Virus record (IMG/VR): IMGVR_UViG_3300046506_000050
Coordinates: 1 to 46,947 of that record
DNA: 46,947 nt
Direction: 5' to 3' (one strand)
Source: a virus
Made by a program: the position numbers and the translations under genes. Numbering within the stretch: the first letter of the stretch is position 1; every line of letters begins with the position of its first letter. The notes under the pieces were generated by a model, which saw only the letters and a program-made list of their open reading frames with translations, searched no databases and had not been told where the DNA came from. Shown here in pieces: positions 10,473 to 39,339 of the stretch.

Positions 10473-10485
10473 TTCAGGAAACATC

Positions 10486-10710: not shown

Positions 10711-10994
10711 TGACCGACCAGTTCTCCTTCCGTCAATTCCTGGCGGTACTGGTGGGCATGGGCGTCATCATCGGTCTCGGGAAGCTCTTGGCTTCTGACG
10801 AGAAGTTCACCTGGCGGCTGGCTATTGGCCGCGCCATCGTGAGTGCTGGTCTCTCCGTGGCCGCTGGCGCGATCATCGCGTTCATCCCCGGCCTATCCCA
10901 AATGGCGATCCTCGGACTCGCCGCAGCATCGGCAGTGCTCGGTGAGCAGTTCATCGAGAAGCTCATCCACCTGAAGGCAGGCGGCGGTCAGTGA
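10710..10994 (+). CDS. Holin (LydA/class III-like)
   Basis: The 94-residue membrane protein shows hydrophobic segments near residues 9-28, 40-58 and 62-80 separated by short charged turns, with a charged C-terminus (EKLIHLKAGGGQ). This is the layout of small phage holins. The stretch around LAIGRAIVSAG and the segment ASAVLGEQFIE recall the LydA/phage_holin_3_3 group, a family call by eye only. The holin would permeabilise the inner membrane at lysis. It is overlapped on both sides (TAATG before, GTGA after), sitting with the terminase genes as in T7 (gp17.5 next to gp18). Confidence 0.78.
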   Translation: MTDQFSFRQFLAVLVGMGVIIGLGKLLASDEKFTWRLAIGRAIVSAGLSVAAGAIIAFIPGLSQMAILGLAAASAVLGEQFIEKLIHLKAGGGQ

Positions 10995-11323
10995 CCAAGG
11001 GCCGCCCTGAGCGGCTCCGAATCCTCGGGCGGTACTTCGGCATCGAGCCGATGCCCGAGGCAGACACGGAGACCGCCTACGGTCTCATGCACCCCGACAC
11101 TCGCACCATCTCCATCGCTGATGGGATGGCTGGGTTCGATGAGGTGGACACCGTACTTCACGAAGTCATGCATGCAGTTCGATTCGCCCAGGGCCGCGAG
11201 TATGGCGGTGAGGTCGAAGAGGACTACGTGCGCTCCCTGGCTACGGGCCTGACCAACGTATTCCGTGACAACCCCGGCTTCGTCCGGTGGGTCGTCTCGA
11301 CACTGAAGAAGGACAACACTTGA
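10991..11323 (+). CDS. Small putative zinc metallopeptidase-like protein (HEVMH)
   Basis: The 110-residue product carries VLHEVMHAVRF at about residues 54-64. This contains an HExxH zinc-binding motif preceded by a hydrophobic residue, as in zincins, with acidic residues (GGEVEEDYV) downstream that could give the third ligand. The family resembles minimal metallopeptidases found in phages, but no named family is claimed. It starts with GTG overlapping the holin stop and ends in TGA overlapping the TTG of terS. It replaces the Rz-like gene (18.5) found here in T7. It might process a virion or host protein, or be a catalytically dead scaffold. Confidence 0.7.
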   Translation: MTKGRPERLRILGRYFGIEPMPEADTETAYGLMHPDTRTISIADGMAGFDEVDTVLHEVMHAVRFAQGREYGGEVEEDYVRSLATGLTNVFRDNPGFVRWVVSTLKKDNT

Positions 11324-11604
11324 GTGACAAGAAGGACGTCCTCCAGGAGCGCTTTGAACAGTGCTTGCTGGATGGACTGAAGGGCCAGCCCTTGGTGAAC
11401 AAGGACGGTCCTGTGCTGGACAAGGAGTCGGGCGAGATTCTCATGGTCGCCCCAGACTCTTCGTTCCTCTCCGTGGTCCGTGCGTATCTGAAGGACCTGT
11501 CGGACAAGCTGGGCAAACCGAAGACCCCCGAGACGGGTAAGTCGAAGGGCATGCTGGCTGCGTTCGAATCGAAGCTCCCGTTTAACTCGACCCGTCCGAA
11601 TTGA
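11320..11604 (+). CDS. Terminase small subunit (DNA maturase A, gp18-like)
   Basis: The 94-residue protein is close to T7 gp18 (89). Its position directly before the large terminase and its N-terminal charged helix with hydrophobic spacing (DKKDVLQERFEQCLLDGLK) fit the small subunit that recognises concatemeric phage DNA and assembles the packaging motor. The start is TTG 11320, overlapping the previous TGA as TTGA; an in-frame GTG further upstream would overlap the previous gene by 34 bases. It ends in TGA overlapping the TTG start of terL. Confidence 0.85.
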   Translation: MSDKKDVLQERFEQCLLDGLKGQPLVNKDGPVLDKESGEILMVAPDSSFLSVVRAYLKDLSDKLGKPKTPETGKSKGMLAAFESKLPFNSTRPN

Positions 11605-13466
11605 TCCATCGCCCCTGGTGGTGGCAGTCGGACGACCCTGTACGGGAAGACTTCCGAAACCTGCTTTACCTGGTCTGGGAGCACATGGGGCTCCCCGATC
11701 CCACACCCGCGCAGTACGACATCGCTTACTTCCTCCAGCACGGCTGGGCAGGCTATGGCGTCACTGAAGCTGGGGACTATTTTGAGTGGTACGGCAACGA
11801 AGCAACCGAGCCGGATCGCACTGGCTGTCGCCGTCTAGGCGAAGCCGACGAGAAGTTCCGCGAAGACATCATCGAGGCATTCCGAGGTATCGGGAAGTCG
11901 TATGTGACCTCCGCGTTCGCGCTGTTCCGTCTGTACCGTCGCCCGTTCGATGAGAAGATCATCGTACTGTCCGCGTCAGGTTCCAAGGCCAAAGAGTTCA
12001 TCTCGATGACCAAGACGCTCCTGCTGACCATGGACCTGTTCGAGCACCTTCGACCACGGGACGACCAGCGGGACACAGCGTACGCATTCGACGTCGATGG
12101 GGCGTCCATCTCCCAGTCGCCGTCCGTGAAGGCTGCGGGTATCACTGGGCAGATCACGGGCTCCCGCGCGACGCTCATCATCGCAGACGACATCGAGGTC
12201 GTGGACAACTCCCGCACCGAGGAAGCTCGGGAGCGGCTGCTGCACAAGACCAACGAGTTCGCCGCGATCAAGGTGACGGGCGGTGCCGACGTGATCTACC
12301 TCGGGACGCCTCAGACCGAAGAGTCGATCTACACGAAGCTCATCAAGCTCATGGGTGCCGCCGGCTGGATTCTCCCTGCCCGGTATCCCACGGCTGACAA
12401 GCGGGACGCGTACGTCTTCGAGCGCGAAGGCGGCTCACAGATCGATTGCCTGGCTCCGCGAGCACGGCGAGTCGATAAGGACCCGAGCATCGCATGGACG
12501 CCCACGGACCCCGAGCGGTTCAACGAGACCGAGTTGCAGAACCGGGAGGCCAAGGGACGTTCCTACTTCGCCCTCCAGTTCCAGCTTGACACTTCGCTGT
12601 CCGACGCCGAGCGCTACCCGCTGAAGCAGCACGACCTCATCGTGATGTCCTGCAACACGTTCAAGGCTCCCCAGATTCTCCAGTGGGGCCACGACACGGG
12701 CGGGAAGAACAAGCGTGTGGACCTGATGAACTACGGGTTCTCGGGCGACCACTGGCTGGCTCCGCTGTTCGTTGACAGCGAGTGGCGTGAGTACGAGCAG
12801 TCCATCCTCTTCGTTGACCCCTCGGGGCGCGGGAAGGACGAGACGGCCTGGGCGGTCGTGAAGACGCTCAACGGTATGCTGTACGCCGTGGAGTCCGGTG
12901 GCTACGCTGGTGACCCTGGCGAGGCTATGCTTCAGATCGCAATGGCCGCCAAGAAGCACAAGGTCCACGAGATCGCAGTCGAGCCGAACTACGCTGGAGC
13001 AATCTGGATCAATGCCTTCGAGCCGGTACTGTCGAAGGTATGGCCCGCAGAGAAGCCTGGCGACACCTCGGGCTGCACGGTGCGCGAAGCTGAGTGGAGC
13101 AGGACCCAGAAGGAAGTGCGGATCATCGAGACGCTGGAGCCGGTCATGACGACCCACCGGCTGGTCGTGGATGAGTCCGTGGCCTCCGATGGCACCCTGA
13201 TGTACCAGCTAACGCACATCACCCGAGAGCGGAACTGCCTGTCCCATGACGACCGCCTGGATGCACTGGCGGGCGCTGTGGCCGAGTTGGCCGCTACGCT
13301 GCGCATGGACGTCAACCAGGCCGCACGGGAGATGAAGGAAGCCGAAGAGGACGCAGTGCTCGAAGAGTTCATCGAGGGATGCTTACGCTCGGCTGCTGGG
13401 GACTACGAGGCGCGAACGCTGCATGGCGAACGCGTGTGGCAGGACGAGTCCCACTACCACCTGTGA
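11601..13466 (+). CDS. Terminase large subunit (DNA maturase B, gp19-like)
   Basis: The 621-residue packaging ATPase/nuclease is close to T7 gp19 (586). Walker A is seen at RGIGKS (95-100, Lys99), Walker B at LIIADD (192-197), and the C-terminal RNase H-like nuclease has FVDPSGRGKDE near residue 404 and DDRLDALAGA near 548. It pumps DNA into the prohead through the portal and cuts concatemers. The start is TTG 11601 in a TTGA overlap with the small subunit. It is the last + strand gene before the long non-coding region, as in T7. Confidence 0.97.
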   Translation: MIHRPWWWQSDDPVREDFRNLLYLVWEHMGLPDPTPAQYDIAYFLQHGWAGYGVTEAGDYFEWYGNEATEPDRTGCRRLGEADEKFREDIIEAFRGIGKSYVTSAFALFRLYRRPFDEKIIVLSASGSKAKEFISMTKTLLLTMDLFEHLRPRDDQRDTAYAFDVDGASISQSPSVKAAGITGQITGSRATLIIADDIEVVDNSRTEEARERLLHKTNEFAAIKVTGGADVIYLGTPQTEESIYTKLIKLMGAAGWILPARYPTADKRDAYVFEREGGSQIDCLAPRARRVDKDPSIAWTPTDPERFNETELQNREAKGRSYFALQFQLDTSLSDAERYPLKQHDLIVMSCNTFKAPQILQWGHDTGGKNKRVDLMNYGFSGDHWLAPLFVDSEWREYEQSILFVDPSGRGKDETAWAVVKTLNGMLYAVESGGYAGDPGEAMLQIAMAAKKHKVHEIAVEPNYAGAIWINAFEPVLSKVWPAEKPGDTSGCTVREAEWSRTQKEVRIIETLEPVMTTHRLVVDESVASDGTLMYQLTHITRERNCLSHDDRLDALAGAVAELAATLRMDVNQAAREMKEAEEDAVLEEFIEGCLRSAAGDYEARTLHGERVWQDESHYHL

Positions 13467-15466: not shown

Positions 15467-15718
15467 ATGAAAGACGTTAAAGACATGACGCGCGGCGAGA
15501 TCGAACGCGCATTGGAGCAGGCAGGGAAGCGCGTCAGCAAAGCGTGTGACGCATTCATCAAAGCGGGTCGCGGTCAGGAGCGCGTGCAAGACATCTTGAA
15601 ACAGTCGGACGGGCTCAGTGTGAAGTACCGCGAGGCAAGCGACCGATACCGCGAGGTCAACGCGGAATGTGAGCGGCGCATGACTTACCACGGCTCACAT
15701 CAACGCGTCAAAGCGTGA
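15467..15718 (+). CDS. 83-residue helical early protein
   Basis: The protein is highly charged and helical (DMTRGEIERALEQAGKRVSKA; YREASDRYREVNAECERRM), probably a two-helix coiled coil. The ribosome binding site AGGGGTGACACC precedes ATG 15467. It ends two bases before hammerhead ribozyme 1, so self-cleavage would trim its messenger just behind the stop codon. Function unknown. Confidence 0.7.
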   Translation: MKDVKDMTRGEIERALEQAGKRVSKACDAFIKAGRGQERVQDILKQSDGLSVKYREASDRYREVNAECERRMTYHGSHQRVKA

Positions 15719-15720
15719 CA

Positions 15721-15772
15721 GGTCGAAACGGGCGCAAGCCCGTCTAGCGGTAGAGCCGCTACTGATGAGACC
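15721..15772 (+). ncRNA. Hammerhead ribozyme 1 (type II), upstream of ardA
   Basis: All parts of the hammerhead core are present in the type II order. Stem II is GGTC (15721-15724) with GACC (15769-15772). GAAA follows at 15725-15728. Stem III is CGGGC-GCAA-GCCCG (15729-15742), then TC with predicted cleavage after C15744 (GUC triplet). Stem I is TAGCGG-loop-CCGCTA (15745-15761), then the invariant CTGATGA (15762-15768). Cleavage would release the ardA messenger with a short hairpin at its 5' end, 45 bases before the start codon. The segment from CTGATGA to the ribosome binding site and ATG is repeated almost unchanged at ribozyme 2. Confidence 0.93.
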
Positions 15773-15788
15773 AACCTGGAGAAACACC

Positions 15789-16277
15789 ATGACCCGCATA
15801 TATGTCGCTTGCCTCGCTTCCTACAATTCCGGCCGCCTGCACGGCGTGTGGATCGATACCGCAGGATTGGACGCGGACGACATCCAAGAAACGGTAAATG
15901 AGATGCTGGAAGCGTCGCCTGTGGCTGATGCGGAAGAGTGGGCGATTCACGATCACGAGGGGTTCGGCGGCCTCCTGGGTGCACACGATTCGTTTGAGCG
16001 CGTGGCGGAACTGAGCGACGCACTGAACGAACACGGTGAGGCGTTCCTTGCGTACCTGGAGGTCTTCGGGCAGGACGCTGACGTCTCAAAGTTCAGCGAT
16101 GCATACCGTGGCGAGTGGGACAGTGAGAAGGCATTCGCTGAAGACTGGGCAGTAGAGACGGGCTTGATTGATGAGCAACACCCGATGTTTTCCTATGTGG
16201 ACTGGGAGCATTACTGGAATGCGGACCTGAAGCACAGTTTCAGCGAGCACAACGGGCATTTTTTCTACTGCGATTGA
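15789..16277 (+). CDS. ardA: ArdA-type antirestriction protein
   Basis: The 162-residue acidic protein matches the ArdA family: IYVACLASYNSGRLHGVWID at the N-terminus, then EEWAIHDHEGFGG (about 48-60) and EAFLAYLEVFG (about 86-96). ArdA mimics the bent B-form DNA bound by type I restriction-modification enzymes and blocks them, the job done in T7 by the unrelated first gene product Ocr. ATG 15789 is chosen because CTGGAGAAACACC precedes it; an in-frame ATG at 15765 lies inside the ribozyme core. Its messenger is expected to be freed by ribozyme 1. The stop is followed by motif B copy 3 and then ribozyme 2. Confidence 0.92.
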   Translation: MTRIYVACLASYNSGRLHGVWIDTAGLDADDIQETVNEMLEASPVADAEEWAIHDHEGFGGLLGAHDSFERVAELSDALNEHGEAFLAYLEVFGQDADVSKFSDAYRGEWDSEKAFAEDWAVETGLIDEQHPMFSYVDWEHYWNADLKHSFSEHNGHFFYCD

Positions 16278-16300
16278 AGTGACTCACTGATAGCGATAGG
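16274..16300 (+). repeat. Motif B copy 3 (partial), overlapping the ardA stop
   Basis: TGAAGTGACTCACTGATAGC shares the GAAGTGA half of motif B. Its second half, ACTCACTGATAGCGATAGG, resembles the family A site at 17104. It overlaps the TGA of ardA and ends where stem II of ribozyme 2 begins. Confidence 0.5.
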
Positions 16301-16348
16301 TCGAAACCCCGCAAGGGGTCTCACGGTGAGTCCGTGACTGATGAGACC
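16299..16348 (+). ncRNA. Hammerhead ribozyme 2 (type II)
   Basis: Stem II is GGTC (16299-16302) with GACC (16345-16348), then GAAA. Stem III is CCCC-GCAA-GGGG (16307-16318), then TC with cleavage predicted after C16320. Stem I is TCACGG-TGAGT-CCGTGA (16321-16337), then CTGATGA (16338-16344). Stems I and III differ in sequence from ribozyme 1 on both strands while staying fully paired, which is covariation. The ribosome binding site and ATG of the next gene follow 16 bases on. Confidence 0.93.
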
Positions 16349-16364
16349 AACCTGGAGAAACACC

Positions 16365-16760
16365 ATGACCGAGACGCGCGAGCAACTGACGCCCGCTGAA
16401 CTTGACCGCTTCCACCGCGCATACATCGAATGCGCCCTGTGGTCTTCCGTGAATCACGACGACGCACTAGGCGAGAGCCTGGAAGGCTATGAACTCGCCA
16501 CCGTGACCCATAACGACATGCTCAATACGTGCCGCTTGTGGACCGATGCGAACATCGAGCTATTGGACGCAGCATGCGAGCGCGACGGCTACACCATCGA
16601 ACGCGCAGGCCATGACTTCTGGCTCACGCGGAATCACCACGGCGCAGGGTTCTGGGATCGTGGCCTAGGCGACATCGGCGCACGCCTGACGGACGCGGCG
16701 CACCTGGAGGGATCGGTTGACCTCTACGTTGGCGATGATGGTGAGGTCTATCAACAATGA
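16365..16760 (+). CDS. Acidic early protein of a widespread phage/plasmid family
   Basis: The 131-residue acidic protein carries a C-terminal block AGHDFWLTRNHHGAGFWDRG followed by LGDIGARLTDAAHLEGSVDL and YVGDDGEVY (about 83-130). I recall this motif from many phage and plasmid hypothetical proteins, without a settled function. Its acidity and its place between ardA and other early genes would suit a further DNA-mimic or antidefence protein, which is inference. ATG 16365 is chosen from the CTGGAGAAACACC site; the in-frame ATG at 16341 is in the ribozyme. Its stop overlaps the next ATG. Confidence 0.75.
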   Translation: MTETREQLTPAELDRFHRAYIECALWSSVNHDDALGESLEGYELATVTHNDMLNTCRLWTDANIELLDAACERDGYTIERAGHDFWLTRNHHGAGFWDRGLGDIGARLTDAAHLEGSVDLYVGDDGEVYQQ

Positions 16761-17068
16761 CAATCCAAATCATGAAAGAGGGTGCATGCGTGGCACGCTC
16801 GCGTAACCTGCGCGGCATCCTCGACTATGCGCGGCGCTCGCCTGTCGCCCATATCGAAACCAGCATGGGGTATGACGGTTCGCCTGTGCGTGGCTTGGTG
16901 TTGGTCAAGTATGCGGACGGGGCGCATTGCCTCACTGACTTCGCCTCGTATCACATCATGATTGATTGGTTGCGCGGGCGTCGCTCATGGCGCGGCGCTA
17001 CGTGGACGCATCGCGGGGAGGATATGGGCTACCTCACGCAGCCTGGGATCATCGCTGGGACGAAGTGA
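16757..17068 (+). CDS. 103-residue early protein
   Basis: It is coupled by ATGA to the preceding gene. The sequence (MTIQIMKEGACVARSRNLRG; VLVKYADGAHCLTDFASY; WLRGRRSWRGA) reads as a small alpha/beta protein with a basic C-terminal half. Similar short proteins occur in phage and plasmid early regions, but I cannot name the family. Its stop codon lies inside motif B copy 4. Confidence 0.72.
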   Translation: MTIQIMKEGACVARSRNLRGILDYARRSPVAHIETSMGYDGSPVRGLVLVKYADGAHCLTDFASYHIMIDWLRGRRSWRGATWTHRGEDMGYLTQPGIIAGTK

Positions 17069-17082
17069 AGCGGGATGCTGTA
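17061..17082 (+). repeat. Motif B copy 4, overlapping a stop codon
   Basis: CGAAGTGAAGCGGGATGCTG contains the stop of the preceding gene (TGA) and matches motif B except for three positions in the right half. Confidence 0.6.
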
Positions 17083-17103
17083 AGCAACACCTTTGCGGCA
17101 AAT

Positions 17104-17128
17104 TTTACTCACTCAGCATAGGATAGCG
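17104..17128 (+). promoter_or_regulatory. T7-type promoter-like site (family A), copy 2, divergent
   Basis: ACTCACTCAGCATAGGATAG matches the ACTCMGCAYAKGG core but lacks the left GAGTA block. It lies just before the gene at 17133. It is weaker than the other family A sites. Confidence 0.4.
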
Positions 17129-17132
17129 CCCC

Positions 17133-17351
17133 ATGAGAAGAGTCCTAATCCGCTTTCAAGGCTACGCATTGTCCCAGGAGGTCGCGCGACTGTTCAGCGA
17201 CCGTAACGCAACCATCACGCGGGACCGGTCGAGCAACTGGTTCCGCCTGGAGATCGATAAGAACGCAGACACCCTGGGGGCAATCCGCGCAACCCTCCAG
17301 GATCGGTGGCCCCGCCATCGCTTCATTGTGTCGTGTGTTCGGGTGAAGTGA
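17133..17351 (+). CDS. 72-residue basic early protein
   Basis: The product (MRRVLIRFQGYALSQEVARL ... FIVSCVRVK) is Arg-rich with a beta-alpha-beta-like pattern (RVLIRFQG; SQEVARLFSDR; FRLEIDK). It might bind nucleic acid, but no family is recognised. Its TGA is inside motif B copy 5, and ribozyme 3 follows 16 bases later. Confidence 0.68.
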   Translation: MRRVLIRFQGYALSQEVARLFSDRNATITRDRSSNWFRLEIDKNADTLGAIRATLQDRWPRHRFIVSCVRVK

Positions 17352-17362
17352 GAGATTATCAA
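17344..17362 (+). repeat. Motif B copy 5 (left half), overlapping a stop codon
   Basis: TGAAGTGAGAGATTATCA keeps GAAGTGA-GAG and again includes the stop codon of the preceding gene. The right half is diverged, so this is the weakest copy. Confidence 0.4.
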
Positions 17363-17367
17363 TGACA

Positions 17368-17419
17368 GGCCGAAACGGGCGAGAGCCCGTCTCACGGTGA
17401 GGCCGTGACTGATGAGGCC
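17368..17419 (+). ncRNA. Hammerhead ribozyme 3 (type II), with no close downstream gene
   Basis: Stem II is GGCC (17368-17371) with GGCC (17416-17419), a paired U-to-C change relative to ribozymes 1 and 2. Then come GAAA, stem III CGGGC-GAGA-GCCCG (17376-17389), TC with cleavage predicted after C17391, stem I TCACGG-TGAGG-CCGTGA (17392-17408) and CTGATGA (17409-17415). Unlike the other two, it is not followed by a ribosome binding site. The next credible gene starts 456 bases later, so this copy may define the 3' end of the early message. Confidence 0.92.
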
Positions 17420-17875
17420 AGGAAAGCAGGCGATTTGAGCGGCTCAGGCCGTCTAGGGTCGCTGAGCTATTCGTCAGACGTTGCGAGCGGCTCCCAGGCG
17501 TGCTGTCTAGCGTCCTGGGCCTATTCTCTCCCCTTACGCGCGTGCGCGAAGCCCCGAAAAACAATTAAAGATGTGCCGAATTTACAGGATTGAAAGTGCG
17601 TCGTAAGCGTAAAGTTTGCACCCGTCGAGACGTCTGTAAGGGTGGATAGGGGTAGCAGCCACTCCTGAACAGCCTGAGTCAGACCGATCGAGTAACTCCG
17701 CATAGGGTAGAGGCTAAGGATTATCTTTAAGACTCTATAAGACTCTAAGAGAGGGCCGCAGAGCCCTGGAGTAGCAATGTAGATCGTGATGAAGCTAGAC
17801 GCTGTAATAGATGTGGAGTAAAGTGAGTGGCCCTAATTCGTCTTACATAAACACCACTTCAAGGGAAAACATCAA
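17420..17875. other. Non-coding stretch between ribozyme 3 and the regulator gene
   Basis: No convincing gene is present. A hairpin with stem CCCAGG/CCTGGG (about 17490-17517, inner GCT-GTCT-AGC) is followed by a pyrimidine stretch and could be a terminator. The family A site lies at 17689-17713, followed by repeated AAGACTCTA blocks and a GGGC-loop-GCCC hairpin (about 17752-17765). As it separates early lytic genes from the regulator/integrase module, this segment could also hold regulator operators or the attachment site; no tRNA-like core was seen. Confidence 0.55.
17689..17713 (+). promoter_or_regulatory. T7-type promoter-like site (family A), copy 3
   Basis: CGAGTAACTCCGCATAGGGT followed by AGAGG is a near-consensus family A site. 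It lies 163 bases before the XRE regulator gene and would let the phage polymerase, or a factor binding this site, control the lysogeny module. Confidence 0.58.
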
Positions 17876-18244
17876 ATGACCGTCAAAACTGATTCGTCTA
17901 CAGCCGTTCTACGTGCTCGCTTTGGCGCTTGGCTGAAGGAAGCACGCGAGGAAACGGGGTTGACCCAACTGGAGATGGCCGTACACCTGGACTACGGCTA
18001 CCCCATGATGGTTTCGCAAGTCGAGCGTGGCGTTACCGTTATGCCCGAGCACGACATGCGCGTGTGGGCGACTGTGCTGCGTTTAGACGTGGTCGAGTTC
18101 GCAAAGCAATACCTGTATTACTGCAAGCCGTTTGTTTATGAATGCCTGTATGGCAAGGACCCATATGCTGCCGAAAAGCTGCCCCGCTCAGCAAAAACAA
18201 TCAGTCCTGCCCCAAAACGCGTACCTAAGCGCACTGCAAAGTGA
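17876..18244 (+). CDS. XRE-type helix-turn-helix regulator (cI/Cro-like)
   Basis: The 122-residue DNA-binding protein has a Cro/C1-type domain in the first 80 residues: FGAWLKEAREETGLTQLEMA, then VSQVERG, where the recognition helix is expected. The C-terminal tail is rich in Lys, Pro and Arg (SAKTISPAPKRVPKRTAK). No LexA-like autocleavage domain is present, so this is a short repressor or Cro-type protein. It stands directly before a small gene and the integrase on the same strand. It is the best candidate to bind the motif B or family A repeats and to hold the phage in lysogeny. A ribosome binding site (AAGGGA) precedes ATG 17876. Confidence 0.85.
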   Translation: MTVKTDSSTAVLRARFGAWLKEAREETGLTQLEMAVHLDYGYPMMVSQVERGVTVMPEHDMRVWATVLRLDVVEFAKQYLYYCKPFVYECLYGKDPYAAEKLPRSAKTISPAPKRVPKRTAK

Positions 18245-18479
18245 CGCACGCGCCTTGTGGGGAGCCCGAGTAGAGAACCTGGAGACCGAGTATCCCGAGA
18301 CGCCCTGGTTTGCCATTGACGTCGAAGACGGGCACGTAGTGCTCGAAGCTGTAGAAGGATTCATTCAAGTAAAGCGCGACTTCACGCTCATCGCTCGCAC
18401 TCGCATGGGTGCCGGGTGTGTCGAGAAGCTGTGGCCGCTGGTTCGTTCCTATGTGGAGGCCCAACTTGAGTCTGTTTAA
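18165..18479 (+). CDS. Small protein between regulator and integrase
   Basis: The conserved-looking part is WGARVENLETEYPETPWFAI onward with GHVVLEAVEGFIQVKRD and a C-terminal helix. The start is uncertain. ATG 18165 (AGGA six bases before) gives 104 residues but overlaps the regulator by 80 bases; TTG 18255 gives a shorter product without overlap. The 3' end overlaps the integrase start by 14 bases and contains its ribosome binding site. The family is not recognised; it could be an excisionase-like or regulator-associated factor by position only. Confidence 0.6.
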   Translation: MLPKSCPAQQKQSVLPQNAYLSALQSDARALWGARVENLETEYPETPWFAIDVEDGHVVLEAVEGFIQVKRDFTLIARTRMGAGCVEKLWPLVRSYVEAQLESV

Positions 18480-19683
18480 GCGACCGCCACGCGAGGCGTG
18501 GTATTACGAGTTCACCATCAACAAAACGACGTACCGGAAAAGCACCGGGACCTCGAACAAGCGTGAGGCCCTCCAGATCGAGGCCAAAGCCCACGCAGCA
18601 GCGCTGGAAGACCAGCGAGAGCAGCGCGACGGCGTAAAGCGCATGACGCTGTACGAAGTTTCCAAGAAGTGGCTGGAAGTCTCGGAGATGACTCACCGGG
18701 ATCACCAGTCCAACCTGAGCCGCGCACGGAAGCTGTTCGGCGCAGAGTGTCAGCGACGCGGGGCCGAATGGGTGCTGGTGGAGGGGGCGCGGTTTGGGCT
18801 CCCCAAGACGCTCATGGTCCACGACATCACGCAGAGCATGCTGCACGACCTCAAGGCCGCCCGCGTGGCCGAAGGGAACACGACTGCCACGATCAATCGC
18901 GAACTCGGGCTCATCCACACGTTGATGGGCTACGCGAAGTCGCTCGACATCGTCATGCCGTCCAAAGAGATCGTATGGTCGGACAGGCGCAACCGCGCCG
19001 CGTCGCTGGTGGGCGCAGAGCGCAAGGGCAAACTCAGGTGGCTCACCGTCGAGGAAGAGACGCGCCTGATTGCAGCGCTGGCCGAACGCATCGTAGAGGG
19101 CGACAAGGCCGCGCAGGATAACCACGACCTCGTAGTAATGCTCCTGGACACCGGGGCGCGTTACAGCGAGATCGCAGAACTCCCCTGGCGTCAGGTGGAC
19201 CTCGAAAATGGGACGCTGCACCTGTTCCGCTCGAAGACGCAGAACGAATCTGTGTTCCGGCTCACCAGGCGAGTCCAGGAGATTCTCAGGCGTCGCAAGG
19301 AAACCACCTGGCCGAAGTCCTACGTGTTTCCGGCCCAGATAGCGATAAGCCTGGGTAAAACAGCCTCGTCCGAAGGCGGTCGCCCGCGTTACCCGCTGAC
19401 GGACTACGCTGAAGGGGATCGCCCGCGTGGACACTCCACGGACAGCATTCAGGGAGTCATCGACAAGCTCGGGCTGAACGACGACCCGACGCTGGACAGG
19501 GTGACCCCGCACACGTTCCGAGACACCTACGCGTCGCGGCTGGTCCAGGCGGGCGTGAGTCTGCTGAAGGTCCAGAAGCTGCTCGGGCACTCCACGCCCA
19601 TGATGACCCAGAAGTATGCGCACCTGTCGCCGGATGCCACTGGGCAGGAAGCTGCGGACGTTCTGGATCGGATGCGCGAGTAA
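18466..19683 (+). CDS. int: Tyrosine-type integrase
   Basis: The 405-residue site-specific recombinase carries the full catalytic set in the C-terminal domain: Arg232 (TGARYSE), His349-x-x-Arg352 (TPHTFRD), His375 (LLGHSTP) and nucleophile Tyr384 (TQKYAHL). The N-terminal half holds an arm-type (WYYEFTINKTTYRKSTG) and a core-binding SAM-like domain. TTG 18466 is chosen as start because a perfect GGAGG lies six bases upstream. It would integrate the phage genome into the host chromosome, so this T7-like phage is probably temperate. The last codons overlap the family A site at 19677. Confidence 0.93.
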   Translation: MSLFKRPPREAWYYEFTINKTTYRKSTGTSNKREALQIEAKAHAAALEDQREQRDGVKRMTLYEVSKKWLEVSEMTHRDHQSNLSRARKLFGAECQRRGAEWVLVEGARFGLPKTLMVHDITQSMLHDLKAARVAEGNTTATINRELGLIHTLMGYAKSLDIVMPSKEIVWSDRRNRAASLVGAERKGKLRWLTVEEETRLIAALAERIVEGDKAAQDNHDLVVMLLDTGARYSEIAELPWRQVDLENGTLHLFRSKTQNESVFRLTRRVQEILRRRKETTWPKSYVFPAQIAISLGKTASSEGGRPRYPLTDYAEGDRPRGHSTDSIQGVIDKLGLNDDPTLDRVTPHTFRDTYASRLVQAGVSLLKVQKLLGHSTPMMTQKYAHLSPDATGQEAADVLDRMRE

Positions 19684-19702
19684 CTCCGCACAGGGTGACG
19701 AC
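19677..19702 (+). promoter_or_regulatory. T7-type promoter-like site (family A), copy 4
   Basis: CGAGTAACTCCGCACAGGGT followed by GACGAC overlaps the integrase stop codon. The 33-base block up to CCCTATCG recurs at 20172 with one change. GGGT-GACG-ACCC can form a small hairpin at the start of the transcript. Confidence 0.62.
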
Positions 19703-19709
19703 CCTATCG

Positions 19710-19725
19710 GCCCGCTTCGGCGGGC
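19710..19725 (+). terminator. UUCG-loop hairpin after the integrase
   Basis: GCCCGC-TTCG-GCGGGC, six GC-rich pairs with a stable tetraloop, followed by TTAG rather than a T-run. It may end integrase transcripts or protect the 5' end of transcripts started at 19677. Confidence 0.45.
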
Positions 19726-19747
19726 TTAGTCACAACTGGAGGTGAAA

Positions 19748-19936
19748 ATGGATGTGCAGCAAGCCGAGGCGTACAAGCAGAAGCCTCGCCCCGTCCTGAT
19801 AACGGTGAACGCCGAAGCGGTCGAGCGTGCGTGCAAGGCTCACTGGCCGTCGTGGGAAAGGATGCGCCCTGACCATCAACGTAAGTGGCGGGCAAAGATG
19901 GAGACCGCGCTGCTCGCGATGTTGTTTGCCGAGTAG
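19748..19936 (+). CDS. 62-residue helical protein
   Basis: The product (MDVQQAEAYKQKPRPVLITV ... ALLAMLFAE) has a Trp/Arg-rich helix (KAHWPSWERMRPDHQRKWRA). A strong GGAGGTGAAA precedes ATG 19748. It is transcribed from the family A site at 19677. The family is not recognised; the basic, aromatic helix could bind nucleic acid or a protein partner. Confidence 0.6.
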   Translation: MDVQQAEAYKQKPRPVLITVNAEAVERACKAHWPSWERMRPDHQRKWRAKMETALLAMLFAE

Positions 19937-19942
19937 GGCCGT

Positions 19943-20149
19943 CTACTGATCGGGATGCCCTGGGTAGTACAGGGCCAGCGCATAGAGGCCGGTGAACTCG
20001 TACTGACAGGATTCGCAAGTGAACTCCTGGTGGACGGTAGCCGCGCCGATAGCGCAGGCACCCGCAGTAACGTTGGGTGAGTTGCAGGCGGGACAGGTGG
20101 TCAGGTAGGTCGCTTTGACTAACGCGGTCCAGTCATCGGGGTCGATCAC
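19943..20149 (-). CDS. Minus-strand zinc-ribbon protein
   Basis: The 68-residue protein has two Cys pairs (CPAC near 19-22 and CESC near 45-48), a classic small zinc ribbon. The GTG start at 20149 is preceded by GGGAGG six bases upstream on the minus strand. It runs against the + strand genes, is convergent with the 62-residue gene, and is divergent from the family A site at 20172. A minus-strand gene next to the integrase could be expressed in the lysogen. Zinc ribbons of this size often bind DNA, RNA polymerase or a partner protein; no specific role is shown. Confidence 0.72.
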   Translation of the reverse strand: MIDPDDWTALVKATYLTTCPACNSPNVTAGACAIGAATVHQEFTCESCQYEFTGLYALALYYPGHPDQ

Positions 20150-20171
20150 GGCGGCCTCCCAGGCAACTCAT

Positions 20172-20197
20172 CGAGTAACTCAGCACAGGGTGACGAC
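20172..20197 (+). promoter_or_regulatory. T7-type promoter-like site (family A), copy 5, before the RNA polymerase
   Basis: CGAGTAACTCAGCACAGGGT then GACGAC is the closest match to the T7 promoter (ACTCAGCACAGGG against ACTCACTATAGGG). It stands 275 bases before the first RNA polymerase gene, so the polymerase could amplify its own messenger. The preceding GCAACTCATCGAGT contains an inverted GAGT/ACTC arrangement. Confidence 0.65.
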
Positions 20198-20202
20198 CCT
20201 AT

Positions 20203-20440
20203 CGCGGCATGGTAGTCCGGAGGCTCTGAGCACGGCAAGACAAAGCCGGTTTCGCGCCTCACTACCCCGCGACATGGGTCCTTCCCCAAAGGCTTCCCAT
20301 AAAGTGATTCGCTTTAAAGTGAGTTTCTTTATGAAAAGTCTGTAAAGCCTGTAGAATAAGGCTATTGCGGTGCCTAGGGTGGTGTGGTTGACCCGTAACG
20401 GGATTCGGCTATCACAACCGTAGGTGTCGCTTCGGTAACG
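20203..20440 (+). ncRNA. Highly structured leader of the RNA polymerase gene
   Basis: Between the family A site and the RNA polymerase N-domain gene lies a non-coding leader with nested pairings. GCGG/CCGC (20204/20267), GGTAGT/ACTACC (20211/20261), GAGGC/GCCTC (20220/20256) and CGGC/GCCG (20233/20245) make one long interrupted hairpin. AGCCT/AGGCT (20346/20359) and GGTTG/CAACC enclosing CCCG/CGGG (about 20385-20420) follow. TTGACC with TATCAC 16 bases on (20388-20415) could also be a host promoter. Such a leader could stabilise or regulate the polymerase messenger. No known riboswitch class is recognised. Confidence 0.5.
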
Positions 20441-20472
20441 TCCTAAGTTGTTGATTTTATTGGAGAGACACG

Positions 20473-21366
20473 ATGGTCGCATCTGAAAGCGAATCGGATC
20501 AAAGCACTACATCCCACACCAAAACACTTCCCATGAAGCCGGTGCCTGTAGGTGCGACCGACACAACGGCCCAGCGTCACTGGGAGCACTGGCAGGTTCA
20601 GCGCGGCATCGAGCGCTACCGCAAAACTCTGGTCCGCGAGACCAAAACAGGGGGCGTCGTTCAGCGTGGTCTGGACGAGGTTCAGCACGGCCAGCGGATC
20701 GCGTCCGAACTCATCGGGCCGATGGTCGCCGCCGTGAAAGCAGCGCAGCAGGCATTCGCTGACCGCTTGAACGACGCCCAGGGACGCGAGATGTCCCGCC
20801 TGCCGGATAGCACGACCATCCTGACAATGCTCCCCGCTGACACCATCGCCGCCTGTGCCGTCCTGACAGCGCTGGCGAACCCGGTGGACGCGGGGTGGAC
20901 CTCGGTGCGCATCCTTTGCGCCGCCCGCATCCGGCACGAACTGGAGTACCAGGCGTGGCAACAGGCAGAGAAGGCCGCCGAGAAGCTACGCAAGCAGACC
21001 GGCGAGGACGGGGTGAACCTGTTCAAGCTGATGCTGCACCGGAACAACGGCGAGGTGGACAAGCGCGTCTTCGACAAGTGGTCGAAGAAGTCGCAGACCC
21101 TCCAGAAGCTCGACTGGGACCAGCGCACCAAGGTCCACGTTGGCGGTGAGGTCATGTCCATGCTCATCGAGTCCAATGGCTGGTTCGAGATCACCGAGGA
21201 ACGCGAAGAGGGCCAGAAGTTCGCCCGTCAGTACTTCGGTATGACCGAGACCGCCCGAGCGCTCACCATGAGCCTCCAGAATTCCTGCGAGTTGCATCGC
21301 CCCTTCCTGGCTCCCATGATTTGCGAGCCGCAGGACTACGTCTTCATTTCCCCTGAAGTGAAGTGA
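20473..21366 (+). CDS. Phage RNA polymerase, N-terminal domain subunit (split T7-type polymerase)
   Basis: The 297-residue protein corresponds to the N-terminal domain of the T7-type single-subunit RNA polymerase, which in T7 binds the upstream promoter and the nascent RNA. KVHVGGEVMSMLIESNGWF (220-238) aligns with T7 IHVGVRCIEMLIESTG. CELHRPFLAPMICEPQDY (272-289) aligns with the T7 segment ending QPCVVPPKPW at the end of the N-domain. The protein then stops; the catalytic part is encoded separately at 22333. The two lengths add up to 860, close to T7 (883), with no loss at the junction. GGAGAG precedes ATG 20473. The stop codon sits inside motif B copy 6. Confidence 0.87.
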   Translation: MVASESESDQSTTSHTKTLPMKPVPVGATDTTAQRHWEHWQVQRGIERYRKTLVRETKTGGVVQRGLDEVQHGQRIASELIGPMVAAVKAAQQAFADRLNDAQGREMSRLPDSTTILTMLPADTIAACAVLTALANPVDAGWTSVRILCAARIRHELEYQAWQQAEKAAEKLRKQTGEDGVNLFKLMLHRNNGEVDKRVFDKWSKKSQTLQKLDWDQRTKVHVGGEVMSMLIESNGWFEITEEREEGQKFARQYFGMTETARALTMSLQNSCELHRPFLAPMICEPQDYVFISPEVK

Positions 21367-21376
21367 GTTGCTTTAT
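21353..21376 (+). repeat. Motif B copy 6, overlapping the stop of the RNA polymerase N-subunit
   Basis: CTGAAGTGAAGTGAGTTGCT then TTATC. The stop codon TGA of the N-subunit gene is inside. GAAGTGAGTTGC is exactly the inverse of the sequence within the spacer of the early sigma70 promoter at 14656-14667. Confidence 0.72.
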
Positions 21377-21403
21377 CATCTACATCTGACTGGAACTGAC
21401 ACC

Positions 21404-21568
21404 GTGCAAACCCAAGACACCAAGCCCGCGAAATTGATCGTGGGCAACATCATCATCGACTTCGCCTGTCCGGTGCCCCTGCGCATCGGTGACGACGAAT
21501 CCACCCGCAGGATCGCCCTCGCCATCGAGAAGGCGCTGAACGAAACCTTCGAAGGAGCGGCAGCATGA
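21404..21568 (+). CDS. 54-residue protein, first of four genes between the polymerase halves
   Basis: The product (MQTQDTKPAKLIVGNIIIDF ... EKALNETFEGAAA) has a beta hairpin-like start and a C-terminal helix. GTG 21404 is the likely start; TTG 21368 lies inside motif B. Its stop overlaps the next ATG (ATGA). The family is unknown. Confidence 0.6.
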   Translation: MQTQDTKPAKLIVGNIIIDFACPVPLRIGDDESTRRIALAIEKALNETFEGAAA

Positions 21569-21801
21569 AGATCGCTGCATTCATCGTGCAGCGCACGAGC
21601 AAGCTGGACCCGCGCGACGTCACCGAAGCGGTATACGGCCTGCCCCCGCGCATCGAGCGCGAATACCGTACGCACAGCAACGACCGGTTCGTCACGAGCC
21701 ACCGTCAGCAGGCCGACGAGGTGGTAGATGAGTTGACGGACCTGTTCGGTCATGTGAACACGTACGAAGTCGTGGAACTGGAAATCGAGGTGCAAGCATG
21801 A
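21565..21801 (+). CDS. 78-residue protein between the polymerase halves
   Basis: An acidic alpha/beta protein (MKIAAFIVQRTSKLDPRDVT; DEVVDELTDLFGHVNTYEVV; ELEIEVQA). It is coupled on both sides by ATGA overlaps. The family is not recognised. Its two beta ends and middle helix suggest a small ferredoxin-like fold, which is inference from the pattern only. Confidence 0.7.
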   Translation: MKIAAFIVQRTSKLDPRDVTEAVYGLPPRIEREYRTHSNDRFVTSHRQQADEVVDELTDLFGHVNTYEVVELEIEVQA

Positions 21802-22034
21802 TCGAAACCCACGACATCAACGACGTGGCCCCGAAGGGCTCCACGCACATCTTCGACGCCAAGGTGAGTCTTCCGGGCTGTTCCCAGCTTGTCGTCAAGG
21901 AGTCTTATAGCGACGGCATGCCCGTCACGATGCACTTCACCGCCGAGGGTTACGTATTCGGTCCCGACGACCTCCGCTTCCTCGCCAAGCTGTTCAAGCG
22001 CATGGCGAAGAACATCGAAGGCCGGGGAGACTGA
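21798..22034 (+). CDS. 78-residue protein between the polymerase halves
   Basis: The product has three likely strands (THIFDAKVSLPG; QLVVKESYSDG; VTMHFTAEGYVFG) and a C-terminal basic helix (DLRFLAKLFKRMAKNIEGRG). The family is not recognised. It starts with ATG overlapping the previous stop (ATGA), and its stop is one base before the next ATG. Confidence 0.7.
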   Translation: MIETHDINDVAPKGSTHIFDAKVSLPGCSQLVVKESYSDGMPVTMHFTAEGYVFGPDDLRFLAKLFKRMAKNIEGRGD

Positions 22035-22035
22035 C

Positions 22036-22278
22036 ATGCCGCGCATCTCACCCCTGCAAGCAGCCCTGACCCGCATCGCGGAACTGGAGAAAGCCCTGGA
22101 GTCCGAGAAGAACCAGGCCAAGTGGGCGCGTGATGGTCGCGAGTCAGCACAGAAGGAACTCAGCGATGCGCACGCGATCATCGACGTCCTGCCGGGCGTC
22201 CTGCCGCAAGAGAAGAAGGACTACGGTACGAACCCGCTGGCCGTGCGCATCGCAAGCTGGCTCGCTTCGAAGCAGTAA
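22036..22278 (+). CDS. 80-residue coiled-coil protein between the polymerase halves
   Basis: A heptad-rich helix (ALTRIAELEKALESEKNQAK; ESAQKELSDAHAIIDVLPG) covers the first 55 residues, followed by PLAVRIASWLASKQ. It is probably a dimeric coiled coil. ATG 22036 is preferred over a longer frame because it directly follows the previous stop. It is the last gene before the catalytic polymerase subunit, 54 bases away, with a GCCC-CTCG-GGGC hairpin between. The family is unknown. Confidence 0.68.
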   Translation: MPRISPLQAALTRIAELEKALESEKNQAKWARDGRESAQKELSDAHAIIDVLPGVLPQEKKDYGTNPLAVRIASWLASKQ

Positions 22279-22332
22279 GAAACACCCGCCCCTCGGGGCA
22301 CCCTGAGACGCTGACCGGATACTGAAACCGAC

Positions 22333-24024
22333 ATGACGAAACTGACTGGTGGTTACCTGACCTTGAAGACCGACGCCGTGAAGTCCACGGAGTTCGCCAA
22401 CGCCCACACCGCCTCACTCGAAGCTCCTGTGAAGGGAGCGCACCTGGAAGCCCTCAACCACATCCAGAAGACCCGCTGGGCGATCAACACGGACGTCCTG
22501 TCCGTCGCTGAACGCTGCAAGGCGCTGGGCCTGGCGGTTGCGGGCTTCCCGAGCGCGGAGGAAATTCCGCTGCCCGAGTTTGATGGCGACATCGAGTCCG
22601 ACGATGGCAAGGCGCACAAGCGTGAACTCCACAAGATTCACACGGCGAACGCACGGAACGCGGGGATGCGCCTGAAGCTCTGGTCGCTGCTGGAGATGGC
22701 CCGCGACCTCGTGGACTTCCCGGCGCTCTGGTTCCCGCACTATGCGGACTTCCGTGGCCGCTTCTACCCGCGTCCCCAAGACCTGCACACGCAAGGCGAC
22801 AGTCTGGTCAAGGGCATGCTCCGCTTCGCAGAGCCGGTATCGCTGACCGACCGTGGCTGGTACTGGCTACGAGTCAACACTGCGAACTACTTCGGTGAAG
22901 ACAAGCTGCCGCTCGCAGAGCGTGCGCAGTGGACCATGGACCACCTGGAAGGCATCCTGGCCGTCGCCACGAACCCGATTGACGACCACAAGGCGTTCGA
23001 GTTCTGGTCGCAGGCTGACAGCCCGTGGGAGTTCCTCGCGGTTTGCTTCGAAGTGAAGCGAGTTGCCGACTTCATGATGGTCAACGGGACGGTCGCGGGC
23101 TTCCCCTCGACCGCTGTGTGTCGCTACGACGCTACGTGTTCGGGCATCCAGCATCTGTCCGCTCTCATGAAGGATGAGCGTGCGGCCTTGGAGGTCAACG
23201 TGCTGTCCACTGGCAAGCGTGCCGACATCTACAAGCGCGTGGCTGAGTTGGTGAAGGTCGCAGTCCAGCGCGACGTGACCGATAGCCGACTGGCTGAAGC
23301 GGCTGCGCTGTGGATCGGCAAGGTGGAGCGCAAGACGGTGAAGCGTGCCGTGATGACGACCCCGTATGGCGTGAGCGAGCGCGGCATCCTGACCCAGTTG
23401 GTCCAGGACGGCTTCGCAGACCACATCGACAACGGCAAGGAGCGCTACGCGGCGGCTGAGTACCTCACGGGAAAGATCGTGGATTCACTGGACGAGTCCA
23501 TCGAGGCCCCGCGCCGCGCGATGGGCTACTTCCGTGAGGTCGCGGCCTTCCTCGAAGAGAAGGGTCTGCCGCTGGTCTGGGATACGCCAAGCGGGTTCAC
23601 CGCGAAGCAGGCGTACTTCCGCACCAACGCCACGCGGACCCGCACGCTTCACGGTGACGTCACGTTGCGCTGCGAGGTCCCCGAGGCTGGCTTCCAGCCC
23701 GGTAAGCAAGTCCTCGGCGCGGCTCCGAACGTCGTCCACTCGTTCGACGCGGCCCACCTGGCTCTCGTCTGTGTCGGTTTGAAGGAAGCTGGTGTACGTG
23801 ACCTCGCGTTCGTCCATGACAGCTTCGGGTGTCACGCAGAGAACAGCGACCTCCTGCTGGAAATCACGAAAGAGAAGTTCATCGAGATTTACAGCGGCGA
23901 CGCGCTCGCCGTGTGGCGCGAATCAGTCGTCAAGCACTCGGGGTGCCCCGATGTACCCGCAGTACCCGCACTCGGCTCACTGGATGTCGAGTGTGTCCGT
24001 TCATCCGAATTTTTCTTTTCCTGA
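22333..24024 (+). CDS. Phage RNA polymerase, catalytic subunit (split T7-type polymerase)
   Basis: The 563-residue protein holds the palm, fingers and thumb parts of the T7-type RNA polymerase. It begins MTKLTGGYLTLK, matching T7 TGITGGGYW right after the N-domain. ALWFPHYADFRGRFYP (131-146) matches the T7 IWFPYNMDWRGRVY block. Catalytic residues are present: Asp266 (YDATCSGIQH, T7 Asp537), Lys337 and Arg338 (VKRAVMTTPYG, T7 Lys631/Arg632), Tyr345 (T7 Tyr639) and Asp496 (FVHDSFG, T7 Asp812). The end, SSEFFFS, matches the T7 C-terminal foot (DFAFA). It should need the 20473 product to recognise promoters. A 17-base copy of motif B lies inside at about 23050. The stop codon overlaps motif B copy 7. 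Confidence 0.95.
   Translation: MTKLTGGYLTLKTDAVKSTEFANAHTASLEAPVKGAHLEALNHIQKTRWAINTDVLSVAERCKALGLAVAGFPSAEEIPLPEFDGDIESDDGKAHKRELHKIHTANARNAGMRLKLWSLLEMARDLVDFPALWFPHYADFRGRFYPRPQDLHTQGDSLVKGMLRFAEPVSLTDRGWYWLRVNTANYFGEDKLPLAERAQWTMDHLEGILAVATNPIDDHKAFEFWSQADSPWEFLAVCFEVKRVADFMMVNGTVAGFPSTAVCRYDATCSGIQHLSALMKDERAALEVNVLSTGKRADIYKRVAELVKVAVQRDVTDSRLAEAAALWIGKVERKTVKRAVMTTPYGVSERGILTQLVQDGFADHIDNGKERYAAAEYLTGKIVDSLDESIEAPRRAMGYFREVAAFLEEKGLPLVWDTPSGFTAKQAYFRTNATRTRTLHGDVTLRCEVPEAGFQPGKQVLGAAPNVVHSFDAAHLALVCVGLKEAGVRDLAFVHDSFGCHAENSDLLLEITKEKFIEIYSGDALAVWRESVVKHSGCPDVPAVPALGSLDVECVRSSEFFFS
23050..23066 (+). repeat. Motif B core inside the RNA polymerase catalytic subunit gene
   Basis: GAAGTGAAGCGAGTTGC is identical over 17 bases to motif B at 24023. 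It encodes EVKRVA at a non-catalytic place. Chance identity of 17 bases within a genome this small is unlikely, so it may be a functional site inside the gene. Confidence 0.5.
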
Positions 24025-24044
24025 AGTGAAGCGAGTTGCTTTAT
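24021..24044 (+). repeat. Motif B copy 7, overlapping the stop of the RNA polymerase catalytic subunit
   Basis: CTGAAGTGAAGCGAGTTGCT then TTATT includes the TGA stop (24022-24024). It is nearly identical to copies 1 and 6. Both polymerase subunit genes therefore end in the same motif, in the same phase relative to transcription. Confidence 0.75.
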
Positions 24045-24073
24045 TTCATTTTATTGGTCAACCCGAGATAACC

Positions 24074-24994
24074 ATGAACAAGCTGAATTACGCAAACGCC
24101 GCTGCCCTGATCGCTGACTACCAAGCTGGCGCAAAGTTCGAAGTGAATTACAGCGGGCGAGTTCGTCCCGTGACGGACATCGTGCCGGGGTCGTACATCC
24201 AGGACACAGCCCGCGTCTACATGGAGCAGGGGTCGCTTATCGAGTTCTACGCGAACGGGACGCACCGAGACTACCCCTCGTGGACGCTGGTGAAGACCGC
24301 CGACGCCCCGAAGGCCGCAGAGCCATCCCTGATCTACCCGCTGCCGTTCAAGACCTTCGATGAACTCGTGGAGGCGTTCGAAGCTGGTACGGAGTTCGTC
24401 GTGGAGCGCGGCTCGAAGTATGTGCGTGGAGTTACGTACAAGGTGACGTCGCTGACGCGTGCCCGCGCCGGTGTTCGCGTCGTTTGCGCCGATTACAGCG
24501 CGGGCGGGTGGGGTGGCTTCGATGAGAGCGGCAATCACTACGCTGGCGTCAGCACCCTCAAGGTGCGCGGCGAGATCAAGCGCCACCCGCTGGTCGAGAA
24601 GGTTCAGGCAGCAGCCGTTTCTGCCGAAGCCCCGCTCCTGAAGCGCTTCGTGCTCGGTGAAGACTTCCACTGCCCGAAGACCGGCGAGAACCTGCACTCG
24701 GTCGTGTTCGTCAAGGGCGTGCTCCGCGTCTACATGGTGGACGCAGCGACCGGCAAGCTGTGCTACTCGACCAACTACAAGCACGACGGCGTCCACAAGT
24801 TCCACGCTGACCGCTCGCTTGTCCCCGGCAAGTACGTCAAGCCGGTTGCCCCGGCACCGAAGACCATCAAGGCGACGATCTACAAGCACGCCTACAACGG
24901 CTCGCTGTTCGTCATCCGTGAAGGCGAAGTGCTCCCCGAGATTCGCGGCATCAACAACGCGAAGGTCGTGGGCACCACGGAAATCGCTGAGTGA
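24074..24994 (+). CDS. 306-residue protein of unknown function after the RNA polymerase
   Basis: The protein is beta-rich, with two internal segments of similar pattern: AALIADYQAGAKFEVNYSG near 11 and ELVEAFEAGTEFVVERGSK near 101, each followed by VRxVTDI/VRGVTYK. This suggests an internal duplication. The C-terminal part contains HCPKTGENL and several Lys-rich strands. No family is recognised. It is followed at once (GTGA overlap) by a small gene and SSB, so it may serve replication or the switch to middle genes. ATG 24074 is the first start after the polymerase stop and motif B. Confidence 0.72.
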   Translation: MNKLNYANAAALIADYQAGAKFEVNYSGRVRPVTDIVPGSYIQDTARVYMEQGSLIEFYANGTHRDYPSWTLVKTADAPKAAEPSLIYPLPFKTFDELVEAFEAGTEFVVERGSKYVRGVTYKVTSLTRARAGVRVVCADYSAGGWGGFDESGNHYAGVSTLKVRGEIKRHPLVEKVQAAAVSAEAPLLKRFVLGEDFHCPKTGENLHSVVFVKGVLRVYMVDAATGKLCYSTNYKHDGVHKFHADRSLVPGKYVKPVAPAPKTIKATIYKHAYNGSLFVIREGEVLPEIRGINNAKVVGTTEIAE

Positions 24995-25311
24995 CCGAGC
25001 AGTACTTCACGCGGGCCAGGGAGTTCGACCTGGCTCCGCTTGTGCAGGTGCTGGTGGTCGATTACGGGCACATGTCCGCAACCGCTGCCAGTGCCTTCGA
25101 ACGCAACAAAGAGGACACGGCGCTCGCTGTGCTTCTCGCTCTCGCAGTAGCAGCAAAGTCGGTTCGAGACGCCTTCGACCTCCCGGTTGAAGCCTGGGCC
25201 GAAGCCAACTCCCTAGCGCTCAATCGCGCATCCCTCACCAACCAACTCCCCCAACTGCCGTTCGTAGCCGAACTGGAAGCGGGACTCAACTCCAACCGAA
25301 ACCATGGCTGA
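24991..25311 (+). CDS. 106-residue helical protein before SSB
   Basis: GTG 24991 overlaps the previous stop. The product is mostly helical and Ala/Leu-rich (ALAVLLALAVAAKSVRDAFDL) but without a clear membrane segment set, and ends EAGLNSNRNHG. It overlaps the SSB start by eight bases. The family is unknown; its placement suggests a replication accessory role. Confidence 0.65.
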   Translation: MTEQYFTRAREFDLAPLVQVLVVDYGHMSATAASAFERNKEDTALAVLLALAVAAKSVRDAFDLPVEAWAEANSLALNRASLTNQLPQLPFVAELEAGLNSNRNHG

Positions 25312-39264: not shown

Positions 39265-39339
39265 TCCCGAGTAGCTCAGCGGTAGAGCAGCGCACTGTTA
39301 ATGCGTTGGTCGCAGGTTCGATCCCTGCCTCTGGAGCCA
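39265..39339 (+). tRNA. tRNA-Asn (anticodon GTT), CCA encoded
   Basis: A full cloverleaf fits: acceptor TCCCGAG/CTCTGGA (one C-U mismatch), D-arm GCTC-AGCGGTA-GAGC, anticodon arm GCGCA-CTGTTAA-TGCGT with anticodon GTT, variable loop TGGTC, T-arm GCAGG-TTCGATC-CCTGC, discriminator G and encoded CCA. It stands between the scaffold block and the capsid gene on the same transcript. Processing by host RNase P and 3' enzymes would cut the capsid messenger free. Confidence 0.93.

Follow-up and report, generated by a model that had tools for sequence, protein, structure and literature searches.

The window analysed here is the whole stretch of viral DNA in the record, with a length of 46,947 bases. 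Between its early genes and its T7-type RNA polymerase (RNAP) lies a module formed by an HTH regulator, a small gene and an integrase, and the polymerase itself is divided over two genes:

17876-18244, plus strand: XRE/Cro-type HTH regulator, 122 aa (PF13560, HTH_31), the conserved first gene of the module across the lineage
18231-18479, plus strand: small gene between the HTH and integrase genes, an open frame overlapping both neighbours, with an uncertain start (frame open from 18132)
18466-19683, plus strand: tyrosine integrase, 405 aa (PF00589, E 6.8e-25), catalytic residues complete
20473-21366, plus strand: T7-type RNA polymerase, N-terminal part, RNAP-N (PF14700, E 2.3e-8; phrog_414 positions 6-245)
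22333-24024, plus strand: T7-type RNA polymerase, C-terminal (catalytic) part, RNAP-C (PF00940, E 1.1e-90; phrog_414 positions 249-816)

An exact 127-bp repeat is present at both ends of the record, which identifies the window as a circular assembly whose unit measures 46,820 bp. The large genes are all found on the same strand, and the proteins encoded by the window include, besides the polymerase, a large terminase (a phrog_38 match), a 5'-3' exonuclease and an ssDNA-binding protein. The phage-encoded single-subunit T7-type RNA polymerase that characterizes the Autographiviridae is therefore part of this genome, though split over two genes. Megablast of window positions 17000-25000 against phage records gave zero matches. 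Among 50,697 phage records, every match to the polymerase was below 60% identity, with the best-ranked at 34.9%, the best-listed match to the integrase was at 28%, and no cultured member of the lineage was found. The window is the genome of an uncultured T7-like phage, and from the integrated state of its relatives (below) this phage is very probably temperate. A tRNA-Asn gene is found at 39265-39339, between a scaffold-like and a capsid-like gene, and at about the same place the relatives carry tRNA-Ile (G001), tRNA-Cys (G002), tRNA-Tyr (G003), tRNA-Asn (G008) or none, which makes this a variable tRNA slot. The record G001 (L002, L006-L009) is a near-twin of the window with 60,898 bases, of which 11.3 kb are extra. 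This extra sequence contains integrase-like and resolvase-like frames, abuts virion-protein sequence and is either a chimera or an insertion; its reading as host flank at an attachment junction was rejected because it joins elsewhere than at the attachment site.

The start of the integrase that is common to the relatives is the TTG at 18466, which gives the protein of 405 aa, rather than the GTG of a longer frame at 18409. In the alignment of the window with four relatives, R232, K257, H349, R352, H375 and Y384 (405-aa numbering) are invariant, and this R-K-H-R-H-Y catalytic set of tyrosine integrases lies in an intact frame with no frameshift. The protein matches phrog_1 with an E-value of 4.2e-51, and the dN/dS of the gene between the window and its relatives is 0.26-0.45. 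The first-pass annotation had described a complete tyrosine integrase with Arg232, His349, Arg352, His375 and Tyr384, which is what was found, with Lys257 as a further invariant residue. The position that it gave for the regulator, the small gene and the integrase, between the early genes and the polymerase, is also correct, the polymerase itself being two genes. For the small gene, a weakly similar frame exists at the equivalent place in G002.

The HTH protein matches Pfam HTH_31 (PF13560) with an E-value of 3.3e-6 and 27.7 bits, for a cut-off of 27. Its AlphaFold model has a mean pLDDT of 84, and the closest folds retrieved by Foldseek are those of restriction-modification C-proteins and of the lambda repressor N domain, with a probability of 1.00 but with weak E-values (best 2.3e-3). 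As modelled, the protein is of the XRE-type fold. Of the earlier description as a Cro/C1-type regulator, the HTH regulator stands and the identity with CI is not supported, given that the 122-aa protein consists of the HTH only and lacks the S24 peptidase domain of lambda CI-type repressors. The MarR-like type of regulator described for other temperate T7-like phages is not found here either, as the matches are to HTH_31 and phage repressor-type families. Fourteen strong homologues were obtained, all within the lineage of this phage wherever this was examined, and none among the 50,697 phage records. The homologues share contigs with the integrase and the split polymerase; every one of the 15 genomes examined has the gene, next to that of the integrase wherever the record extends there. 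In six near relatives (G002-G007) a second regulator is found:

L003 8381-9088, minus strand: CI repressor of the S24 type, oriented divergently to the HTH gene (in G002-G007)

This repressor matches phrog_4 (E 2.9e-41) and PF00717 (E 8.4e-19). No homologue of the G002 protein was found in the window, G001, G008, G016, G018 or G019, nor in the Variovorax, Xylophilus and Rhizobacter prophages described below, and in the window the gap at 17352-17875 is too short for such a gene. Because some of the genomes without this CI are integrated, the S24 repressor is dispensable to prophages of the lineage. The HTH protein, being encoded in 15 of 15 genomes, and beside the integrase wherever the record extends there, is therefore a better candidate for the regulator than the S24 CI, and is taken here as the conserved candidate regulator of the lineage. 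Upstream of the HTH gene of the window, the search for palindromic operators gave zero perfect 7-bp inverted repeats. A direct repeat resembling TTTGGGAGTTTGCA is common to G002-G007, between the CI and HTH genes.

The C-terminal part of the polymerase of the window matches T7 RNAP with an E-value of 1.3e-60. The two polymerase genes are separated by 967 bases that contain small frames, and the split recurs in each of the 15 genomes examined, where the gap ranges from 135 to 2,626 bases. Other T7-type polymerases that came up in the same searches have open frames of 812-964 codons, and no report of a split phage RNA polymerase was found in a literature search. Between the integrase and the polymerase, a small zinc-ribbon-like frame lies on the minus strand (19943-20149), with weak Pfam matches.

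A pattern scan for GAGTAACTCNGCANAGGGT with 0-1 mismatches gave copies at 14262, 17690, 19678, 20173 and 35910, where 0.07 are expected by chance. All five of these GAGTAACTC-type sites are on the sense strand, and three of them surround the genes discussed above:

17690-17708, plus strand: phage-promoter-like site upstream of the HTH-integrase module, 0 mismatches
19678-19696, plus strand: phage-promoter-like site overlapping the integrase stop codon
20173-20191, plus strand: phage-promoter-like site upstream of RNAP-N

The versions found in the relatives differ in the upstream part, have AGGGTGACGACCCT in common, and are located after the integrase gene and near the polymerase genes. Variant sites in the relatives are expected if promoters follow their own polymerase. 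The GAGTAACTC repeat looks like a promoter of the phage RNA polymerase and not like an operator. With one such promoter ahead of its own gene, the polymerase would be subject to positive feedback, and another would drive the HTH-integrase pair.

The first-pass annotation had proposed a search of bacterial genomes for integrated relatives with their attachment cores, and these were found, with an empty site as control. Scanning viral contigs with the polymerase gave six isolate-genome records, G002-G007, which we take to be isolates from the naming of their IMG record numbers, and one further metagenome record. In G002-G007, RNAP-N is near one end and the HTH-integrase module near the other, with three of the six ending short of the integrase; this layout is expected if the prophages recombine between the integrase and the polymerase. 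A profile search of genome contigs with the RNAP-C alignment found nothing, and the same type of search with the integrase alignment gave relatives of nearly full length (48-51%) in two Variovorax genomes, one Xylophilus MAG and Rhizobacter. The split polymerase of the lineage lies 40-45 kb from the integrase in three of these four genomes.

In Variovorax sp. J22G73, attL and attR (TGGTAGGACGTACTGGATTCGAACCAGTGACCAACGGATTAAAAG) are identical in 45 of 45 bases and correspond to the 3' half of tRNA-Lys(TTT). The two repeats (contig positions 336181-336225 and 383110-383154) are 46,929 bp apart, and the element between them is bounded by the integrase on one side and RNAP-N on the other. When the flanks are joined, they match the congener G846 contiguously over all 595 bases at 87%, and G846 is thus the empty site for this element. 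In Rhizobacter sp. Root1221, repeats that are also identical in 45 of 45 bases (TGGTAGGCCGTGTTGGACTTGAACCAACGACCAAAGGATTATGAG) lie in a tRNA with a CAT anticodon, 47,886 bp apart. The Xylophilus MAG has an exact 13-bp core in a tRNA gene (45,343 bp), and the metagenome record G008 an exact 18-bp core beside a tRNA with a CAT anticodon (46,133 bp). Halves of tRNA genes at the left end, with identities assigned by eye, are found in G006 (tRNA-Lys), G016 (tRNA-Lys), G018 (tRNA with CAT) and G019 (tRNA-Asn). A related polymerase is present in 5 of 401 genomes of the family group of the Variovorax congener, with the short open frame of the split polymerase in three of the five, including the two found previously. 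The gene order of the lineage is HTH, small gene and tyrosine integrase beside a two-gene T7-type RNA polymerase, and the attachment core of the relatives ends in the anticodon loop and is placed between the integrase and RNAP-N; the prophage therefore begins with RNAP-N and ends with the integrase. By these junctions, members of the lineage are integrated at tRNA genes of soil bacteria such as Variovorax and Rhizobacter. The host sequence that adjoins the G008 core resembles rpoD in our own reading. Rhizobacter sp. Root1221 also has a second, more distant T7-type polymerase with an intact frame of 837 codons (G011 contig C3 42158-43744), which possibly belongs to another T7-like prophage.

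The position of these junctions delimits the corresponding region of the window:

19684-20472, no strand: presumed attP region, the recombination interval of the relatives, whose attL and attR fall between the integrase and RNAP-N

A conserved flank, CCTAAGTTGTTGAT, is found near 20442-20455, and the flank CCTAAGYTRTTGAT, which lies 14 bases after the core in several relatives, is present in the window. ARAGORN and Rfam gave no tRNA in 19684-20472, and no tRNA half is recognisable there; a tRNA-Thr match obtained with relaxed ARAGORN settings was judged spurious. When the DNA of 20192-20472 was compared with 399 Burkholderiales genomes, only short chance-like matches were obtained, many of them to one AT-rich stretch. 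Neither an attachment core within 19684-20472 nor an attB in these 399 genomes was found for the window, and the phage itself was not encountered in integrated form. Since its core was not found, we infer the lysogeny of this phage from its relatives.

The early genes of the window are accompanied by a second type of repeat, present in three copies:

15718-15776, plus strand: type II hammerhead ribozyme candidate, predicted cut after 15744, ahead of the ArdA gene (ATG 15789)
16296-16352, plus strand: type II hammerhead ribozyme candidate, predicted cut after 16320, ahead of the open reading frame 16365-16760 (65.6 bits with our own model)
17365-17423, plus strand: type II hammerhead ribozyme candidate, predicted cut after 17391 (66.6 bits with our own model; fold z -3.0)

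These repeats have the architecture of type II hammerheads, with stems I and III closed, stem II open and an invariant core (GAAA / GUC / CUGAUGA), and their stems vary freely in DNA sequence. The same architecture was found in nine genomes by a motif search. Across 16 distinct copies, standard pairs account for 99.1% of the paired cells, a value that is partly built in because the copies were first chosen by a motif requiring some pairing; the exchange of pair types is not built in. Both sides changed in 10 of the 15 pairs of the three stems, and the covariation score is 0.689, versus 0.165 for shuffled alignments and at most 0.135 with partners slid. Our own model, built from these copies, gave 26 copies in 720 kb, all within the window and G001-G008, where the copies used to build the model match by construction; the copy at 15718-15776, with 69.1 bits (E 9e-17), is itself one of those. 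In more distant prophages there was a single match to this model, with an E-value of 0.16. The best copy of the window against Rfam RF02276 is 17365-17423, with 31.2 bits, which is under the gathering threshold of 37. Nearly all copies are located about 20 nt ahead of a start codon, from which an SD-like stretch separates them. The third copy of the window (17365-17423) is not in such a position and lies at the boundary between the early genes and the lysogeny module. Directly 3' of the first copy is the ArdA anti-restriction gene (15789-16277; PF07275, E 1e-31). The early-gene repeats look like type II hammerhead ribozyme candidates, which are putatively self-cutting RNAs. In T7, RNase III cuts the early mRNA between genes; the hammerhead RNAs may cut the early transcript just 5' of early genes, in a role like that of the T7 RNase III sites, so that most early genes would acquire a 5' end of their own.

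The first-pass annotation had instead placed motif B sites across the early genes in a lysis-lysogeny circuit, where they would be operators. These sites were given no coordinates, and the proposal was judged from the repeats that are actually present; it is not supported, given that the core, structure and covariation of one repeat are those of hammerheads and the other repeat is promoter-like. It is true that the early-gene repeats are spaced along the early region on a single strand, as stoperator-like operators of the HTH/C1 regulator would be. Nonetheless, it is highly improbable that they are operators and not RNA elements, because the hammerhead core is invariant, the stem changes are compensatory (10 of 15 pairs; 0.689 against 0.165), the repeats lie about 20 nt before start codons, and stem DNA that varies freely is unlike a protein-binding site.

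We consider it probable, from the genomes compared, that the window is a temperate T7-like podophage with a circular unit of 46.82 kb, of a lineage found as Burkholderiales prophages. The lysogeny module that had been proposed for this T7-like phage is supported by the intact integrase, the conservation of the module and the integrated relatives. The integrase of the window would then work as in these relatives, and the HTH protein encoded with it would keep lysogeny, with an additional S24/CI only in a sub-clade. Stable lysogeny may have been lost in the window phage, which does not have the S24/CI found in its nearest prophage relatives. A virulent derivative of the temperate lineage, which has kept the integrase and the HTH protein and has lost CI and a usable attachment core, would explain why S24/CI is absent from the window and its near-twin G001 and present in six near relatives, and why the presumed attP region has no recognisable tRNA half. 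This is unlikely, however, as G008 and the Variovorax, Xylophilus and Rhizobacter prophages are integrated without that CI, the integrase and HTH genes are intact and constrained, and the flank CCTAAGTTGTTGAT is retained at the expected place. T7 itself is lytic, which would agree with an integrase module that is passing cargo, inserted in a lytic T7-like phage and outside of its life cycle, but the position and order of the module are conserved across the lineage and matching attachment sites are found in bacterial chromosomes, which makes such an insertion hardly credible. For the temperate phage that we favour, a broader scheme is conceivable but doubtful, in which a two-polypeptide T7-type polymerase needs assembly, its split provides an extra control point between lysis and lysogeny, hammerheads replace RNase III, and the XRE protein is the sole lineage-wide regulator.

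Compared with known systems, the window has in common with T7 a T7-type RNAP after the early genes, and differs in that T7 has neither an integrase nor an HTH regulator and has its RNAP as one gene; T7 is not known to have ribozymes. Rhizobium phage Pasto (MT708545.1), a temperate member of the Autographiviridae, resembles the window in its order of ArdA, HTH regulator, tyrosine integrase, tRNA and T7-type RNAP, and is cited in PMC9145550 and PMC10134795 as lysogenising Agrobacterium. Unlike the window, its RNAP is a single intact gene (9351-11840), which is only 33% identical, its regulator is of another HTH type, from a group described as MarR-like (PMC10134795), and our hammerhead model had no match in the first 14 kb of its genome. 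Pseudomonas phage LUZ100 also has an integrase and an HTH-type regulator upstream of the RNAP, in one operon, and a phage promoter directly ahead of the RNAP (PMC10134795). It differs from the window in its MarR-like regulator, and a split polymerase is not mentioned in PMC10134795. The regulator-integrase pair directly upstream of the RNAP, as in Pasto and LUZ100, is thus found in the window as well. A prophage of Agrobacterium tumefaciens has, like the window, several hammerheads around ardA, with a regulator and an integrase nearby, and differs in that the regulator is marR (PMC3088659). Its triple hammerhead array self-cleaves in vitro and in E. coli (PMC3088659), so the hammerhead device is not new.

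Temperate T7-like phages are few, and no stable lysogens were obtained for LUZ100 (PMC10134795). Further prophages of this kind are cited in PMC9145550. The present lineage supplies defined prophages in named environmental strains, exact attachment sites and a regulator in every member examined, and with its naturally split polymerase and ribozyme-tagged early genes it makes integration, repression and early RNA processing directly testable. That T7-like phages can be temperate is already known (PMC10134795, PMC9145550); what the window adds is a new variant, which differs in the family of its regulator, in having its polymerase split, in an early region rich in ribozyme candidates and in having Burkholderiales as hosts.
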